From positions 186,001 through 250,000 of the forward strand of contig NZ_QGDO01000002.1 in assembly GCF_003149185.1 (NCBI RefSeq): DNA of 64,000 bases, written 5' to 3'. How positions within the stretch are numbered: the stretch's first letter is position 1; every line of letters starts with the position of its first letter. This DNA comes from Sediminitomix flava. GTDB taxonomy: Bacteria > Bacteroidota > Bacteroidia > Cytophagales > Flammeovirgaceae. This document shows positions 55,744 through 63,519 of the stretch, one piece after another. The position numbers and the translations under genes were made by a program. Under the pieces are notes generated by a model, which saw nothing but the letters and a program-made list of their open reading frames with translations, was not told the DNA's origin and ran no database searches.

Positions 55744-55817
55744 GGTCCTATAGCTCAGTTGGTTAGAGCACCTGACTCATAATCAGGTGGTCCCTGGTTC
55801 GAGCCCAGGTGGGACCA
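55744..55817 (+). tRNA. tRNA with anticodon CAT (Met or lysidine-type Ile)
   Basis: Full cloverleaf. Acceptor GGTCCTA pairs with TGGGACC and the discriminator is A. The anticodon stem CCTGA/TCAGG flanks the loop CTCATAA, with the anticodon at 55778-55780. The T-loop is GGTTCGAGCC. 3' CCA is not encoded. The acceptor pairs C4-G69 and C5-G68 match features used by TilS to recognise tRNA-Ile2, so Ile(CAT) is favoured over elongator Met; sequence alone does not settle it. The 3' end borders the accessory region. Confidence 0.9.
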
Positions 55818-55831
55818 CTTTAAAGGTTTTT

Positions 55832-55870
55832 AAAACGCTGTAAATCAAGTATTTACAGCGTTTTTGTTTT
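55832..55870 (+). terminator. Terminator between tRNA and DUF6371 gene
   Basis: AAAACGCTGTAAAT pairs with ATTTACAGCGTTTT, followed by TGTTTT. Usable on both strands. Confidence 0.8.
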
Positions 55871-55908
55871 TATAGGTCGATCTATAGGTCAATCTTTTTA
55901 ATTTGTTT

Positions 55909-56784
55909 TCACCGAAGGTTTTCTAACCTTTGTCTCGCCAAAGGATTCTTCATTAAATGATCATCCACTAATATATCCGCAATATCAATACCTGAATCTT
56001 CCTCTGGATAAGGATCAATGAATACTGCATCACAAAACTTAGAAATTTCTTCACACTTTCTAAACCAAGCGTTTCTTGCATTGTCATGAAAGTCGGGTAT
56101 GACGAAAACTCTTCGGCCTTCTAATACACGACATTTACCAACTGAAAAATTAGATAAACCTCCAGTTGCTAACCAAATCATATTAGGATAGACAATACGT
56201 CCTATAATTGCAGTTTTTTCACTCTCAACAATACAGACATCTTGATCTAGGTTGTTTTTAAGCAGGTGCTCACCAAAAAGACAACTTGTGTATCCATCAC
56301 TATTCTTAAATGGCTGTAGAGGAGGTATAGACTTATTACGATGACCGTTTTTATTATAAAACATCACCTTAGCTTTTCTAACATTATCTTCTACATCAAT
56401 TTGCCAAAATACAGCTCCGCCATCTTTTGATGAACCTAAGCAATACTCTTCTATTGCATCTGTTATTTTAGATAGTCCAAATACGGTTTCTAGGAATGTG
56501 TATAAATTATTCTCTTTTTTTGCTTTACAAATAGGACCAAATTTTTCGTAAGTTATAAACCTAATGGCTACGGGCTTAGCTTCAACTACGGATCTATCAT
56601 AGACTCTTTCATAACTAGTATCCTTATATTCATCGATGAAATTAGTATCACACGCATGGCAAAAACCATAATCCGTTTCGCCTACATATGGAATAAACTT
56701 ACCATCACGATTACTTTTACCGCATGGACATTTTTTAGCGATTGAATATCTATTCCCCTTAAAAAAATTCATTGAAAAAGTCAC
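55909..56784 (-). CDS. DUF6371 / Toprim-like primase of an integrated element
   Basis: 291 residues. An N-terminal zinc-finger-like region (CPCGKSNRDGKFIPY, GFCHACDTNF, about residues 18-48) resembles CHC2-type primase fingers. A Toprim-like domain follows, with VCIVESEKTAIIGR (acidic metal residue, about 195-208) and RVFVIPDFHDNARNAW (about 230-245). This is the DUF6371 pattern frequent in Bacteroidota mobile islands next to DUF3987 genes. Start ambiguous: MTFSMNFF, where Met5 is also possible. Nearest gene to the tRNA. Confidence 0.8.
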   Translation of the reverse strand: MTFSMNFFKGNRYSIAKKCPCGKSNRDGKFIPYVGETDYGFCHACDTNFIDEYKDTSYERVYDRSVVEAKPVAIRFITYEKFGPICKAKKENNLYTFLETVFGLSKITDAIEEYCLGSSKDGGAVFWQIDVEDNVRKAKVMFYNKNGHRNKSIPPLQPFKNSDGYTSCLFGEHLLKNNLDQDVCIVESEKTAIIGRIVYPNMIWLATGGLSNFSVGKCRVLEGRRVFVIPDFHDNARNAWFRKCEEISKFCDAVFIDPYPEEDSGIDIADILVDDHLMKNPLARQRLENLR

Positions 56785-56935
56785 TTAATTACCACTTAAT
56801 GAAAAAAAACAACATAAACAACTGACTATCAATAGATTAAAATTATGGTAATTAAATTCACTACAAATTTAATTACCAGTAAAACTACACACTCATTATC
56901 AGTCACTTACAACACATTATATTAAATATTGGTAA

Positions 56936-58399
56936 TTAAGGACGTGTATAAACACCCCGGGACACTTTTTTTAGTTCCTTACTAGCCCTTTCGCGGATTG
57001 TACTTGATCCTATAGCAGAATTTTGTTTCCAAACAAATTCTATTATTTTCTCCATTTTCATAAATTTTTTATCATGAAAAACTAGGTCCCAATCGATTTC
57101 TTTATGTTGAGGTTTCCGTCCCCTTTTCTTCGAGTTTTTAATTTTGCGAGAAGCTTTCATAGAAGTAGAGATTAAATAACGTGTTATTTCTGCAGCTGAA
57201 CTTACGGTTCCTGCACTTATATTTTCTTGAAAAAAATCTCCATTAACTGAAGCTTGAATAGCATGTAATACTAAACACAATCGACCAAAATGTGATTGAA
57301 ACTTAGAAAACAAAGTTTTAATAAAAGACACATCCTTCCCTTCGTAATTATTATAAATCTGTCTTAAAGTGTCCATAACAGATTTGTATTCTACTTTTGC
57401 ATCTTCTGACAAATAGAATACAAAGGGTTTCTCATGGTTATAATCTTTAGTCTTAATTAGGTCATTAAACTTCAAAATAGTAGTTTCATACCACTCTATT
57501 ACTCCATTTTGATCACCTGTAGAATTCCACTCTTTTTGTTTGAAATCAGATGCATCAACAAATAAGAGCCTAAAAAACATTCCAGACTCCATGTGATCTC
57601 CTTTACCCAAATTATGTAATACACCAGGTTGTATCCCTCCAATTAGGCTCATATATGGTTTATCAATACGAAGATGATCACTTGACTTTCTATTGATTAT
57701 AATAGGGGTATGAGAATGTAATGAAAGTAACTTTTCTACATCATCTCCTTTTCTATATTTATTTAAACCATTAAATAAACTCATCACCTCATCCTGAACA
57801 GCAAATACACCTTTCTTATTATTAATTAAGACTTCAGCTAAACTCTCAAAAGTAAAATCATTAATAATAGATTGAATCAAATGCGGTTTTTCAAAATTAG
57901 AATCTTCTCCAGAGTTCATTTCCAACTCTTTGACTTTCTGTTTATACTCTTCGTATAACCTTCGATCTAGTTCTTGTAAAGGTCTTGTTAGTACTTTGAT
58001 TACAGGTGTCTTGCCAACACCCGAATACCCAACAAAAGTCAACCAGAGAGATGCCGAATGCCTTATACCTGGCTTCTCTTCAAAAACAAAGTGAGTACCC
58101 AATAATGATGAAAAAACTGGAAGTAATCCACTCAATATAAATTGAATAGGAAGCCCCAAAGAATCAGAAACCTTAGTCGAAAAATCTTGATATAACTTAG
58201 GGAAAACCTCTATTGGAAATGGTACACCATCATTCAAGGCTTTTACAAACTCTACAGAGTCTTGAGAACCCATAACAATACTAGCCTTAAAACTAAGGCT
58301 AGTATTAGAATTTTTCTCACTTTGATTTACTTTACTTACCAAAGCTTCATCAAAAGCAGCTTTAGACAACTTGGAGTTAGACTGTTTACGATTACCCAT
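56936..58399 (-). CDS. DUF3987 P-loop protein of an integrated element
   Basis: 487 residues. The Walker A motif is GYSGVGKTPVIKVL (about residue 125). Later features include PYMSLIGGIQPGVLHNL and FFRLLFVDASDF (DUF3987 core), and a basic linker (SRKIKNSKKRGRKPQHKEID) before a C-terminal HTH-like helix. DUF3987 proteins occur with Toprim/primase genes in Bacteroidota and proteobacterial genomic islands and are presumed replication or transfer helicase-like proteins. It overlaps the end of the HTH gene by eight bases, so they are coupled. Confidence 0.85.
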   Translation of the reverse strand: MGNRKQSNSKLSKAAFDEALVSKVNQSEKNSNTSLSFKASIVMGSQDSVEFVKALNDGVPFPIEVFPKLYQDFSTKVSDSLGLPIQFILSGLLPVFSSLLGTHFVFEEKPGIRHSASLWLTFVGYSGVGKTPVIKVLTRPLQELDRRLYEEYKQKVKELEMNSGEDSNFEKPHLIQSIINDFTFESLAEVLINNKKGVFAVQDEVMSLFNGLNKYRKGDDVEKLLSLHSHTPIIINRKSSDHLRIDKPYMSLIGGIQPGVLHNLGKGDHMESGMFFRLLFVDASDFKQKEWNSTGDQNGVIEWYETTILKFNDLIKTKDYNHEKPFVFYLSEDAKVEYKSVMDTLRQIYNNYEGKDVSFIKTLFSKFQSHFGRLCLVLHAIQASVNGDFFQENISAGTVSSAAEITRYLISTSMKASRKIKNSKKRGRKPQHKEIDWDLVFHDKKFMKMEKIIEFVWKQNSAIGSSTIRERASKELKKVSRGVYTRP

Positions 58400-58583
58400 T
58401 ACAACCTCCTTCCTTAATTGCGTTAACTACCTCTTCAAAATCATAAAAAAGGCTACCTCCAATTTTATAAGAAGGTATCAATTCGGCCTTAGTCCAGTTG
58501 TGAATTGTTTGGCGAGTCTTTCTAAGTCTTTTAGCTAACTCGGCTACAGTTATTAATGAATTAGATAATTCATTTTTTTTCAT
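58392..58583 (-). CDS. Excisionase-like HTH protein
   Basis: 63 residues with the winged HTH of excisionase/MerR-type DNA-binding proteins (HTH_17): ITVAELAKRLRKTRQTIHNWT, ELIPSYKIGGSLFYDFEEV. It heads the HTH-DUF3987-DUF6371 operon. By position and fold it could be the recombination directionality factor, but its integrase partner is not in the window. Confidence 0.85.
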   Translation of the reverse strand: MKKNELSNSLITVAELAKRLRKTRQTIHNWTKAELIPSYKIGGSLFYDFEEVVNAIKEGGCNG

Positions 58584-59231: not shown

Positions 59232-60770
59232 GTGATCATGAAACAGCTACTTTTTACACTACTATTTATTATTGTTAGTATCTATCAGAGCTTGGCACAA
59301 GGACGAACAGTTATTACAGAGGTGAATTATCAAGACAGTGTATTTAAAACTGAGCTAAAACTAGACTCAATAGACTTCAAATGTTTCGTGAATTTCTCAT
59401 GGAAACGGATTGCTTCAATCGCTTACTTCAATGGAAGCAATTTTCTTGAAGGTGCTGATTTTTATAATACTCAATTTGACTCGTTAGTAGACTTCTCGCC
59501 ATCTTATTTTAATATTGTAGATTTTTCCAAAGTGAAATTTAAGAAAGTTAACTTCTATGATGCTAGATTTGATAATAATGCTTACTTCAAGCAGACTCAA
59601 TTTCGTTCATCTACCAATTTCGATAACACTAGGTTTGATTCAACTGTAGATTTCTCAAAGTCTCATTTCCTTGATACAGTCACTTTCTCTAATGCCCAAT
59701 TTTATGATAATGCCACTTTTTTAAACAACCAATTCCACAAAACTTCAAATTACCTTAATAGTCAATTTGGTAAAATCGCCTTATTTAAAGGAACTATTTT
59801 CCTTGAAAAAGTAAATTTCCAAGATGCCAAATTTGGTTTATTCGCTGATTTCTCAGGAGTTAACTTTCATGATAAAGTAGATTTTCAGAAAACTATATTT
59901 GGCTCAACAGCAAATTTCTATAAAGCTGTATTTAAAGGCGAAACTATATTTGAATACTCAATTCTACCTAATATTATATCATTTAAAAAAGCTAGAACCA
60001 GATATATCATTGACCTTAGTCTCACTCGATTAGACAGTGCAAAAACAGAATGTCTAATTGACCTTTCCTATACAAACATTAGTAAATTTAAATTTAACTA
60101 TAGTCACAATTTCAAACTTTACACATCATTAGATACTTCAACATATGAATTAGGTCTCGAAGAATTAGATCTAGAAAAAAGAGCAACAGAAGTTGAGGCT
60201 ATGTATGAACAGCTTATGCAAATGCAAAAAAATTATGGATATAATAAAGGCTATGCTAAAGCAGATAAAGAATTACAAGAATATCTATATACTACAAGTG
60301 CTCAAATTACTTGGGAAAAGTATGCTTGGTACAACCCTTTAAGATACGGATTATGGGCATGGCACATGGGGTGGAACCTTATCAATAAGTTTTGGTGGGA
60401 TTATGGTTATAATAAAACTCAAATATTCCTTTGTAGCTTTGTGATCTTTCTTATGTTCTGTACAATCAATACTCTTCTAGCCTGGTATTCAAAAATTGAT
60501 AGTATTTATCAAGTTGACTCTATAAAACCTCGCTCAAAAAATGATATTACTAATCATAATTACATTTACTACATAAAACAAATCACTCTCTGTTTTTATG
60601 ATGCTTCGATATATACGGGTCTTATTTTCTTTGGGATAAAAGTAGATACAGAAAAAGTCAACTATGACAATCACATAGGAGCCATCTATCTATATATCCA
60701 ATATACCATTGGATTAGTTTGTCTTGCTTACATGACAAATGCAATTATTATTGGCCCGAAGATTCTTTAG
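59232..60770 (+). CDS. Periplasmic pentapeptide-repeat protein with C-terminal membrane domain
   Basis: 512 residues: a signal peptide (ends SLAQ), then about 200 residues of pentapeptide-like repeats with Phe in the central position (ADFYNTQFDSLVDF; VNFYDARFDNNAYF; FSNAQFYDNATF), expected to form a right-handed beta-helix. A hinge with Glu-rich helix (GLEELDLEKRATEVEAMYEQ) follows. The C-terminal about 120 residues have hydrophobic segments at about 395-418, 450-469 and 481-508, resembling TM1-loop-TM2 of small ion channels but without a GYG filter. Function unknown. Signal-peptide placement puts the repeats outside the cytoplasm, unlike most pentapeptide proteins. Confidence 0.75.
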   Translation: MIMKQLLFTLLFIIVSIYQSLAQGRTVITEVNYQDSVFKTELKLDSIDFKCFVNFSWKRIASIAYFNGSNFLEGADFYNTQFDSLVDFSPSYFNIVDFSKVKFKKVNFYDARFDNNAYFKQTQFRSSTNFDNTRFDSTVDFSKSHFLDTVTFSNAQFYDNATFLNNQFHKTSNYLNSQFGKIALFKGTIFLEKVNFQDAKFGLFADFSGVNFHDKVDFQKTIFGSTANFYKAVFKGETIFEYSILPNIISFKKARTRYIIDLSLTRLDSAKTECLIDLSYTNISKFKFNYSHNFKLYTSLDTSTYELGLEELDLEKRATEVEAMYEQLMQMQKNYGYNKGYAKADKELQEYLYTTSAQITWEKYAWYNPLRYGLWAWHMGWNLINKFWWDYGYNKTQIFLCSFVIFLMFCTINTLLAWYSKIDSIYQVDSIKPRSKNDITNHNYIYYIKQITLCFYDASIYTGLIFFGIKVDTEKVNYDNHIGAIYLYIQYTIGLVCLAYMTNAIIIGPKIL

Positions 60771-61177: not shown

Positions 61178-61456
61178 CTATACTTTATTTTTTGTTCTAG
61201 CTCTTTGCATTATTTCTTCTAAATTAGACTTTTGAAATTCTTCATCTATTTTAGCCATAAATTCTTCTACTCCTTCACTGGAAGGAAAGGTTACAGCTTT
61301 TTCCTTAAGTCGAACTACCACTTTACCTGTTATTTTATCGAAAGTAGTTCTACAATAGTTTGAATAATAGCTTGTCCCCATCAACATTGACTCTCTAAAC
61401 TTCAAATGACTTATCTCTTTTCTGATTTGTTGCAGTTCTTTCTCTTTGTCTTGCAT
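61178..61456 (-). CDS. Small coiled-coil protein, unknown
   Basis: 92 residues from ATG 61456 (MQDKEKELQQIRKEIS); the longer frame from 61501 adds 15 residues of non-coding character. The N-terminal half is a strong coiled-coil (KELQQIRKEISHLKFRES), the rest basic and helical (GKVVVRLKEKAVTF). No domain recognised. The downstream C-tracts end within 12 bases of its stop. Divergent from an HTH gene, with 88 bases between starts. Confidence 0.55.
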   Translation of the reverse strand: MQDKEKELQQIRKEISHLKFRESMLMGTSYYSNYCRTTFDKITGKVVVRLKEKAVTFPSSEGVEEFMAKIDEEFQKSNLEEIMQRARTKNKV

Positions 61457-61544
61457 AATACAGAGATATATGTTGGTTGTATTAATAGAACCTCCAAACA
61501 AGAATTATAATTCATTTATTTAAACTATACTTCAATATTTAAAA

Positions 61545-62099
61545 ATGAAAGAACTCTACAGATATATAGGTAAAGATATTACGCTACAAGATTCTATTGG
61601 ATACAGTTTCACAGACAAGAATTACCACGATTGGGAACTAATTAAAGGAAATGAAATAAATGAATATAAAGACTTTTATTATCAGAAGGCTCTTGGATCA
61701 TTAGAACCAACTCCAAACCTATTCAAAAGCCTCATCTATTATAAAAATACATACTGGCTTAAGACCATAAATATTCAAGACTCATCAGCTATCATCTCCA
61801 TTATCTTTTCTCCATATGCCAAACATTCTCAAAAATATGAGTACTTCGAAAGGATCATTAAACTCAGAGAATATGGAACACTACACTTAGAGTTCAAAAA
61901 ACTTAGACATCAAGCTGGATTAACCCAAGCTGACGTTTGTCGTATAGCAGGTTTAGGCGTCAAGGAAGCTTTAAGTAAATTTGAACATAACGGCTATTCT
62001 AGTGAGAAAGGATATAACCCTAGTTTAAAAATTTTTGAGGGGTGGTGTAATGCTATTGGCTGTTATTTAAAACTTAAGAATCCCTCCCCTCATGAATAA
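61545..62099 (+). CDS. HTH (XRE-like) protein with novel N-terminal domain
   Basis: 184 residues. The C-terminal about 60 residues form an XRE/Cro-type HTH (LRHQAGLTQADVCRIAGLG; ALSKFEHNGYSSEKG). The N-terminal 110 residues (YRYIGKDITLQDSIGYSFTDK; YWLKTINIQDSSAIISIIFS) have no recognised match and look beta-rich. Possibly a regulator of the divergent small coiled-coil gene or an antitoxin-like protein; neither is shown. Start chosen at the only ATG near the frame's opening. Confidence 0.7.
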   Translation: MKELYRYIGKDITLQDSIGYSFTDKNYHDWELIKGNEINEYKDFYYQKALGSLEPTPNLFKSLIYYKNTYWLKTINIQDSSAIISIIFSPYAKHSQKYEYFERIIKLREYGTLHLEFKKLRHQAGLTQADVCRIAGLGVKEALSKFEHNGYSSEKGYNPSLKIFEGWCNAIGCYLKLKNPSPHE

Positions 62100-62160: not shown

Positions 62161-63519
62161 TTACTTAAGAGGTACTTGGACCTTTTTACATAATTCTTCA
62201 TATGATGATACAATACCAGAGATGTAGTCATGCGAACTCGTTCCTAAGTAGAACTTAAACAGCTTTTTAGGGCACAAAGTAATATTTAGGATCTTATCTT
62301 CTTTGAAAATGAGAATAGGTAAATCAACCCAACCGATGTATTCCATTTCTTCAGCTTCTGATGCTAGGTTAGGGAAAAGAAAACAGTTGAGTATCTTTTT
62401 ATCATTATACTCTTGTTCAAAATATTTTTGATAGACAATTTGTTTGGTGACATCTGCAATACCCGGTTGCCCTGTCAATGTTTCTTTTCCTTCAGAAGTA
62501 GAGCCTCGTTTTAATGCATAATACTTAGCATCCAGTACCAATAGAAAATCATTCCCTTCATGTAAAATATCGGGTTGATGTTTTCTAGCTTCCTTGATAT
62601 CGTTGCCATGTGTATCATGCCATACAGGTTTCTCGATTTTGTCTTGAAGAATATGTTGATCTTTGAAAGCCGCTTTGCATGCACTTTCCCAAATGCTATC
62701 AAATTTCTTGGTACCAAATAAGCTGAGCAAGTCTTCGCTTTGTTCGGATTGATGGCTGATCAAGAGCTTTATCCGTTTGAGAAGTTGAATACTTCTATCT
62801 TGAAAAACCGAATGCAGTTCTCGGTCGATGATATTGAGTAAATAATCATCTTCCCCAAGACGTTCTTTCTCGACATGGTACTTTTCTTCAACCATAACTC
62901 CAATCCCCAAAAGGTCTGCATACTTGTCGGCACAATAGGAAACTGCCCATTGGTGGAGCTGTTGGATAATGCTATCTTCCAAACGTTCTTTGTAATGGGT
63001 AATAGTATCCACATAATAGGGTTGTCCTTTGTGGAAAATAGGATCAGTTAGTTCAATGGTACGTTCCCAATTGATCTCGCCATCCCCATTATAGACCAAG
63101 GTTTCTCTCTGTTCATCCCAAAGTCCATGCGTGATAAAATCGTCTAACAGCCAAGAAGCCGTAGCCGCTTCATTGTATAAATCATGGTCTTCATGCAAGA
63201 ACTCTTCTCCTTCGAGTTGCAGTAAATAGTTCTTGGCATATTGCTGTAAGGAAGCAATGATAAGTTTTGTGTGTTCAAGCTGTATTTCCTCTTCTGTAGC
63301 CCAATTTTGAGCATACTTGGGAAGTACAGATATGATAATATTCTTTGCAGTGATTAAGCCTACGTACTTGAACTTTAGCTTGCCTTTTTCCTTTGCTTCT
63401 TGCAAGATACCTTTTGCCATCAGCTGTTGGCAGAGAGCTGAGGGCAAAAGATCATTGAGATCGCTTTTTGAAAAGGACTTTAGTTCGTGGAAAAAATGAA
63501 TATGATTATTCTTGGTCAT
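62161..63519 (-). CDS. LlaJI/McrC-type restriction endonuclease subunit
   Basis: 452 residues. The N-terminal part matches LlaJI-family nucleases (FKYVGLITAKNIIISVLPKYAQNW). A PD-(D/E)xK site reads HQPDILHEGN (Asp about 315) and LLVLDAKYYALKRG (Asp about 329, Lys about 331), followed by GQPGIADVTKQIVYQKYF. It is the DNA-cleaving partner of the McrB-like NTPase encoded upstream; their genes overlap by 14 bases. The system likely restricts foreign DNA, perhaps modified or specifically methylated. No methyltransferase lies within the window. Confidence 0.75.
   Translation of the reverse strand: MTKNNHIHFFHELKSFSKSDLNDLLPSALCQQLMAKGILQEAKEKGKLKFKYVGLITAKNIIISVLPKYAQNWATEEEIQLEHTKLIIASLQQYAKNYLLQLEGEEFLHEDHDLYNEAATASWLLDDFITHGLWDEQRETLVYNGDGEINWERTIELTDPIFHKGQPYYVDTITHYKERLEDSIIQQLHQWAVSYCADKYADLLGIGVMVEEKYHVEKERLGEDDYLLNIIDRELHSVFQDRSIQLLKRIKLLISHQSEQSEDLLSLFGTKKFDSIWESACKAAFKDQHILQDKIEKPVWHDTHGNDIKEARKHQPDILHEGNDFLLVLDAKYYALKRGSTSEGKETLTGQPGIADVTKQIVYQKYFEQEYNDKKILNCFLFPNLASEAEEMEYIGWVDLPILIFKEDKILNITLCPKKLFKFYLGTSSHDYISGIVSSYEELCKKVQVPLK

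Follow-up and report, generated by a model that had tools for sequence, protein, structure and literature searches.

A probable 21.6-kb integrative island in the 3' end of a tRNA-Met gene of Sediminitomix flava, with a predicted replication module and restriction genes

The 3' end of a tRNA-Met gene in Sediminitomix flava very probably holds a complete, bounded and apparently intact integrative island of 21,649 bp. Its left end lies in the 64,000-nucleotide stretch of DNA analysed here (the window, bases 186001-250000 of contig C2 of a 6.6-Mb draft genome), where the part next to the tRNA extends to 58583. The island does not stop there and reaches about 13.5 kb past the window end; positions above 64000 are window-equivalent, that is, contig position minus 186000. 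It belongs to a type already known, the helper-dependent tRNA island, and its module has relatives in Tn4555 and the PICMI satellites. What had looked like an operon without an integrase is now a bounded element with defined ends, and its excision becomes directly testable by PCR. The island also suggests functions for two protein families that recur beside integrases, in several cases with restriction-modification (R-M) genes nearby, namely DUF6371 (DnaG-like primase) and DUF3987 (helicase). In addition, it provides a concrete case in which to test how relaxase-less defence islands travel between cells.

Boundaries and integrase

The ends of the island are marked by the tRNA sequence itself. 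The last 13 bp of the gene, CAGGTGGGACCAC, recur as an identical direct copy on the far side of the element (Table 1), which places the two attachment (att) cores 21,649 bp apart. It is the single exact copy in direct orientation that C2 241000-280999 contains, and by our own estimate, which is not a tool output, about 0.001 such 13-bp matches would be expected by chance per 40 kb on both strands. A second direct repeat, AGGTCGATCTATAGGTCAATC, sits 55 nt inward of the left core and 106 nt inward of the right one. Its 21-bp pattern, AGGTCRATCTATAGGTCRATC, was found at two places only in the 6.6 Mb genome when up to 3 mismatches were allowed, and both copies are mismatch-free and in the same orientation. 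These repeats are probably arm-type integrase sites. As read from the sequence, the combination of a 13-bp repeat near an integrase, which starts 144 bp inside the right core, and a 21-bp repeat restricted to the inside of both ends is a boundary that exceeds chance.

A preliminary description, made from the letters of the window, had noted no recombinase between the operon and the tRNA or in the rest of the window, and we likewise found none among the main open reading frames (ORFs) from the tRNA to the window end. It had offered as its first explanation that the integrase lies at the far end, past the window, and this proved right. Extending the sequence rightward, as it had suggested, revealed both a tyrosine recombinase and a directly repeated tRNA 3' end, the 13-bp copy marking the boundary. 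The genome has 15 Phage_integrase matches, one of which begins 12.1 kb past the window end; the 410-aa gene there, 12.1-13.3 kb beyond the window, is complete, adjoins attR and reads inward. In the linear island it stands at the end opposite DUF6371, unlike in most related loci. Its motifs TGLRFGN, HTARR and GHTDIKTMMRYV presumably hold the catalytic residues. Loss or decay of the integrase is ruled out by this complete gene, and decay of the whole element, another option raised at the time, finds no support because the integrase and the 16 other ORFs taken as island genes are all open.

A terminator-like hairpin followed by T's lies just inside attL, between the convergent tRNA and DUF6371 genes, and another lies just outside attR (fold z -3.8). 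In many of 40 relatives' loci, which were read by eye and not folded, a hairpin is found closely 3' of the same tRNA. For this reason, the hairpin outside attR is plausibly the displaced tRNA's original terminator; the tRNA-proximal one is element-borne.

Table 1. Positions of the island's features and target gene, counted from the first letter of the window (w.e., window-equivalent)
Feature	Position	Strand	Basis
tRNA-Met(CAT), target gene	55744..55818	+	ARAGORN
attL core CAGGTGGGACCAC, tRNA 3' end, left boundary	55806..55818	+	exact direct repeat at w.e. 77455-77467
Terminator-like hairpin, readable on both strands	55832..55864		fold z -4.3 (+), -6.1 (-)
Direct repeat AGGTCGATCTATAGGTCAATC, candidate integrase arm site	55874..55894	+	pattern search of 6.6 Mb genome
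DUF6371 protein, predicted DnaG-like primase	55909..56784	-	PF19898 E 1.5e-45; fold model; PDB matches
DUF3987 protein, predicted AAA+ helicase	56936..58399	-	PF13148 E 5.6e-50; phrog_2373 DNA helicase; fold
HTH_17 protein, AlpA/Xis-like regulator or excisionase	58392..58583	-	PF12728 E 3.4e-9; phrog_66 excisionase and regulator
Pentapeptide-repeat protein, cargo	59232..60770	+	PF13576
Small ORF	61178..61501	-	weak NNH2 match below curated cut-off
ORF with weak C-terminal HTH matches	61545..62099	+	profile matches
LlaJI-type nuclease subunit	62161..63519	-	RE_LlaJI PF09563 E 6.3e-74
McrB-like AAA_5 subunit of LlaJI-type enzyme	w.e. 63506-65410	-	Pfam
C5 methylase	w.e. 65483-66637	-	PF00145 E 3.3e-87
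Sigma-70-like small protein	w.e. 66912-67475	+	
SNF2 helicase	w.e. 67414-69621	+	PF00176 E 1.7e-63
GHKL ATPase	w.e. 69638-71260	+	PF13589; MzaB-like match below cut-off
HNH protein	w.e. 71217-72032	+	PF01844
322-aa protein without family	w.e. 72013-72981	+	
831-aa protein without family	w.e. 73140-75635	+	
Vsr	w.e. 75675-76094	-	PF03852
Tyrosine recombinase, 410 aa	w.e. 76078-77310	-	Arm-DNA-bind_5, SAM_5, Phage_integrase domains
Second 21-bp repeat, partner of AGGTCGATCTATAGGTCAATC	w.e. 77328-77348	same orientation	genome pattern search
attR core, identical 13-bp copy CAGGTGGGACCAC	w.e. 77455-77467	direct	repeat search

Replication and excision module next to the tRNA

The three genes beside the tRNA encode a helix-turn-helix (HTH) protein, a DUF3987 protein and a DUF6371 protein. 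ARAGORN, the ORFs and Pfam agree with the preliminary description on the tRNA and on these neighbours, and all three Pfam matches exceed the curated cut-off. Its wording that the genes start directly after the tRNA has to be corrected: all three lie on the minus strand and the operon reads toward the tRNA, its first gene (HTH) starting 2.8 kb away and the DUF6371 stop lying 90 bp from it. An operon starting at the tRNA is ruled out by this opposite strand.

The DUF6371 protein is predicted to be a DnaG-like primase. Its structural model, built on a 30-row alignment, has a mean pLDDT of 82, and a PDB search gave 21 matches at E <= 1e-3, all of them DnaG, T7 or T4 primases, with TM-scores of 0.36-0.45 by query length. 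The DUF3987 protein is predicted to be a DNA helicase. It matches the phage DNA helicase family phrog_2373 (E 6.9e-34), and its model (16-row alignment, pLDDT 78) resembles MCM-type AAA+ helicases (best E 1.2e-4, TM about 0.4); an earlier study likewise predicts this domain to be a helicase of mobile elements (PMC5862659). The HTH protein matches a PHROG family of excisionases and regulators and, somewhat more weakly, one of small terminase subunits. Among NCBIfam models, the excisionase model TIGR01764 and a defence-associated HTH model both matched it below cut-off.

The locus in relatives

The same tRNA was examined in family and order relatives, a subset of 57 relatives that are too distant to show the junction itself; 38 of 40 tRNA loci were used (L111 and L112 were left out as partial or a different tRNA), and ORFs of at least 150 aa were considered. 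None of the 38 carries DUF3987 or DUF6371 downstream of this tRNA, over 2.4-19 kb per relative. A conserved occupant of the tRNA is ruled out by this result, and it also answers the preliminary description, which had named the presence of these genes beside the tRNA in every relative, with no insertion boundary, as a finding against its reading. Another integrase lies within 6 kb of the tRNA in three relatives (G003, G011 and G021), and none was seen in the other 35 of 38 over 2.4-19 kb. Downstream of the tRNA, its last 12-15 nt recur exactly in 1 of the 40 loci, 108 bp away.

A search for the empty site through the upstream AsmA-like gene was uninformative: its best orthologue, in G003 (50% identity), lies 40 kb from the tRNA-Met. 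In that genome (G003:C9:607671-648066) an integrase-like ORF is found near each of the two genes, and in G000 the distance is about 0.3 kb.

Related modules elsewhere

Away from this tRNA, DUF3987 occurs in five of the 57 relatives. In all five its neighbour is DUF6371, and a same-strand integrase lies within a few kb (four found by BLAST, one of them weak, and the fifth by eye). MnmE beside the G012 and G021 islands, the G021 integrase and the HTH genes of the relatives except G008 were identified by eye. Among the 57 relatives, full-length relatives of the island integrase reach 36% identity at most, which gives no sign of recent movement in this set. The nearest integrases (L138-L141) have no DUF3987, and one of them, L139, has a DUF6371 gene.

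A survey of named genomes was confined to the best 80 of 550 DUF6371 loci. A codirectional integrase lies upstream, within 6.5 kb, in 44 of the 53 loci with at least 6.5 kb of upstream sequence (median gap 2,967 bp), in line with the earlier view that these genes are the core of Bacteroidota integrative elements. Such counts are not independent because many of the 80 are near-identical Tn4555-like copies, about a dozen in all (L173-L176, L179-L183, L186, L187 and L227). Downstream of DUF6371 in ten DUF3987-type loci, Pfam scans covered 51 ORFs, each 150 aa or longer, and gave N6_Mtase in 5, Methylase_S in 5, HSDR_N in 3 and Mob_Pre in 3, and thus R-M genes are frequent neighbours and relaxases occur in some members. 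When one large ORF per locus was scanned singly, three of the ten (L155, L158 and L159) gave a type I restriction subunit. Some of these downstream genes may lie outside the element. Furthermore, 36 plasmid records and 3 phage records hold DUF3987 relatives, none of which reaches 60% identity.

Among described elements, Tn4555 is close in gene content. Its description places a DUF6371 gene in a single block with those for an integrase, an excisionase and an AAA ATPase (PMC13183296), and the island has an integrase, an HTH/xis gene, an ATPase and a DUF6371 gene. The order differs, as the integrase of Tn4555 lies upstream of the ATPase and DUF6371 genes, whereas attP would fall between DUF6371 and Int in the island; Tn4555 also carries a beta-lactamase as cargo where the island carries defence genes. 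NBU1 and NBU2 resemble the island in their integration site, as they insert at tRNA 3' ends. These elements and Tn4555 carry a MobP relaxase (PMC5704250), whereas none was found in the island. The PICMIs of Vibrionaceae share the family core of integrase, HTH_17/AlpA and DUF3987, with R-M genes in some (PMC10803314). Their models comprise PF05930 and PF12728 for AlpA and PF13148 and PF19263 for the primase; the island has PF12728 and PF13148, and PF19263 was not matched. The same source ties PICMIs to fis and describes them as small; the island measures 21.6 kb, sits at tRNA-Met, has a DnaG-like DUF6371 protein and gave no PF02954 (Fis) match among its scanned ORFs.

Proposed life cycle and points against it

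In the proposed cycle, Int, aided by the HTH protein, would recombine attL with attR and release a circle. The tRNA would thereby regain its own terminator: in the restored site, GGAATAGCC, with which the right flank starts at window-equivalent 77468, would come straight after the tRNA, and the native terminator would follow. The circle would have the order HTH_17, DUF3987, DUF6371, attP, Int, so that the operon would point across attP toward int with the terminator hairpin between them. The primase and helicase would then copy the circle, and Int would re-integrate it at tRNA-Met. The cargo would protect the host from incoming DNA. Because no relaxase, secretion or capsid gene was recognised in the island, an outside agent, most likely a conjugative or phage helper, would be needed to carry it between cells.

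Several points weigh against a complete, mobile island. Its GC content is like that of its flanks. The 21-bp pattern was derived from its own two copies, and a reversed control gave 3 matches when up to 3 mismatches were allowed. Beyond the window, the ORFs counted among the island's 17 genes come from a list of ORFs of at least 80 aa. Excision and insertion are inferred, as there is no congener among the 57 relatives, and replication of the circle is a prediction. In addition, no PHROG or NCBIfam model matched DUF6371, and the primase and helicase folds have TM-scores of about 0.3-0.45 and large root-mean-square deviations. Finally, no relaxase family was found among the 17 ORFs, an absence that rests on family searches. 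Genome searches with PF01076 and PF13595 returned nothing, but they say little because no control genome matched either.

Transfer between cells

Since no relaxase was found, mobilisation in trans between cells, which the preliminary description had raised, stays among the candidates. One tentative answer, which we hold to be possible without considering it probable, is an integrative mobilisable element without its own relaxase; a conjugative element, either co-resident or incoming, would supply the relaxase that recognises its oriT. Such elements in tRNA 3' ends of Bacteroidetes are already known, for example NBU1 and NBU2 (PMC5704250). In the survey, a relaxase was scored in 13 of 50 DUF6371 loci with at least 5 kb downstream, eight of them near-identical Tn4555-like copies, and Tn4555-like loci also have CfxA. 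This count is tentative and may be too high or too low, as one of the two MobV-type profile seeds (a 467-aa ORF in L176) has no Pfam match and an E of 0.003 to the other seed. Within the island, neither the family searches nor the local MobV-type profile found a relaxase. The genome has no PF03432 match either, although this family was matched in 1 of 14 control genomes and in 9 of the 58 genomes searched. Moreover, the local relaxase profiles scored only 1 of 11 DUF3987-type loci, though Pfam gave the Mob_Pre matches mentioned above.

Somewhat unlikely is a phage satellite comparable to PICMI or P4/PICI, which would be induced to excise and replicate when a phage infects the cell and would rely on a helper phage for packaging. 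The families used to search for PICMIs, namely integrase, AlpA (PF12728) and PF13148, are all present in the island, and some PICMIs have R-M genes (PMC10803314). Viral contigs also hold DUF6371 relatives, with 198 of the 212 pattern matches confirmed, and viral contig L257 has the order HTH, DUF3987, DUF6371, Int, with 142 nt between the last two. However, occurrence in viral collections is weak evidence because DUF3987 lies beside DUF6371 in only 6 of 80 viral contigs, three of which have a relaxase, and one 'Bacteriophage sp.' record also has a relaxase (by eye). No packaging or capsid gene was recognised in the island, the Fis gene required by the PICMI model is missing, no PHROG matched DUF6371, and the genome gave no match to Terminase_6N, the one terminase family searched, which matched 6 of 14 control genomes. 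A bolder version is a long shot: a relaxase-less Bacteroidota family of phage satellites with Int, an AlpA-like HTH protein, a helicase (DUF3987) and a DnaG-like primase (DUF6371), which would turn restriction systems against competing phages and alter int expression across attP on circularisation. If this were true, the replication operon would be joined to int only in the excised circle; the papers searched contained no description of such a Bacteroidota satellite family.

A stranded, decayed island that no longer moves is unlikely. The lack of transfer genes and the low identity of the integrase relatives would suit it, but the 17 ORFs are open, the integrase is complete, the att cores are identical and the end repeats are intact. 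Finally, the idea of an immobile operon that has long been part of the chromosome next to a tRNA, with the repeat arising by chance, would suit the GC content. It has next to no probability given the integrase and att structure, the lack of these genes downstream of the tRNA in all 38 relatives read and the occurrence of DUF3987 in only 5 of 57.

Cargo genes

The cargo combines two sets of restriction genes. The first resembles LlaJI, in which McrB-like and RE_LlaJI nuclease subunits adjoin a C5 methylase (PMC1459862); LlaJI differs in having two C5 methylases, whereas the island has one PF00145 ORF and, in addition, the SNF2/GHKL/HNH operon and Vsr. This second set recalls the R-M operons with SNF2, HNH and MORC/paraMORC genes of Iyer et al. 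2008, where SNF2, GHKL, HNH, a cytosine methylase and Vsr stand together as they do here (PMC2292703). From domain content, the cargo gene set fits this operon class, with the GHKL protein assigned by domain only, and differs in its extra 322-aa and 831-aa proteins and in its LlaJI-type subunits, where the related block of G324 has an EcoRII-C nuclease.

At E <= 1e-30, a search of 296 genomes of the phylum detected the GHKL gene in 13, this genome among them. Six GHKL-related loci were read. In G324 the block of sigma-like, SNF2, GHKL, HNH and 322-aa genes is whole, at 36-50% identity, and is flanked by a methylase, Vsr and the EcoRII-C nuclease. G255 has a partial block of SNF2, GHKL, HNH, methylase and Vsr with a type II nuclease, and the remaining four loci have different neighbours. 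The 322-aa protein closes the SNF2/GHKL/HNH operon (L232:13014-13982; also L323:7996-8991), is 37% identical to its counterpart in G324 and had no match in Pfam, NCBIfam, PHROGs or PADLOC. Judged by sequence and position, it is an unnamed fifth member of this operon. The pentapeptide-repeat protein, which sits between the replication module and the restriction genes, has a hydrophobic C-terminal part as read by eye.

Other tRNA-like sequences

Partial matches to the tRNA were also seen elsewhere. In G000 (C1:1851078-1851550) there are five similar tandem matches to part of the query tRNA, about 103 bp apart, and tandem tRNA-like runs also occur in relatives, for example at G003:C9:1266753-1267795. 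In G055, the 3' part of the tRNA is matched twice over 51 bp (C8:258284-258334 and 295913-295963), each time near an integrase match, and these are possible att remnants of other elements.

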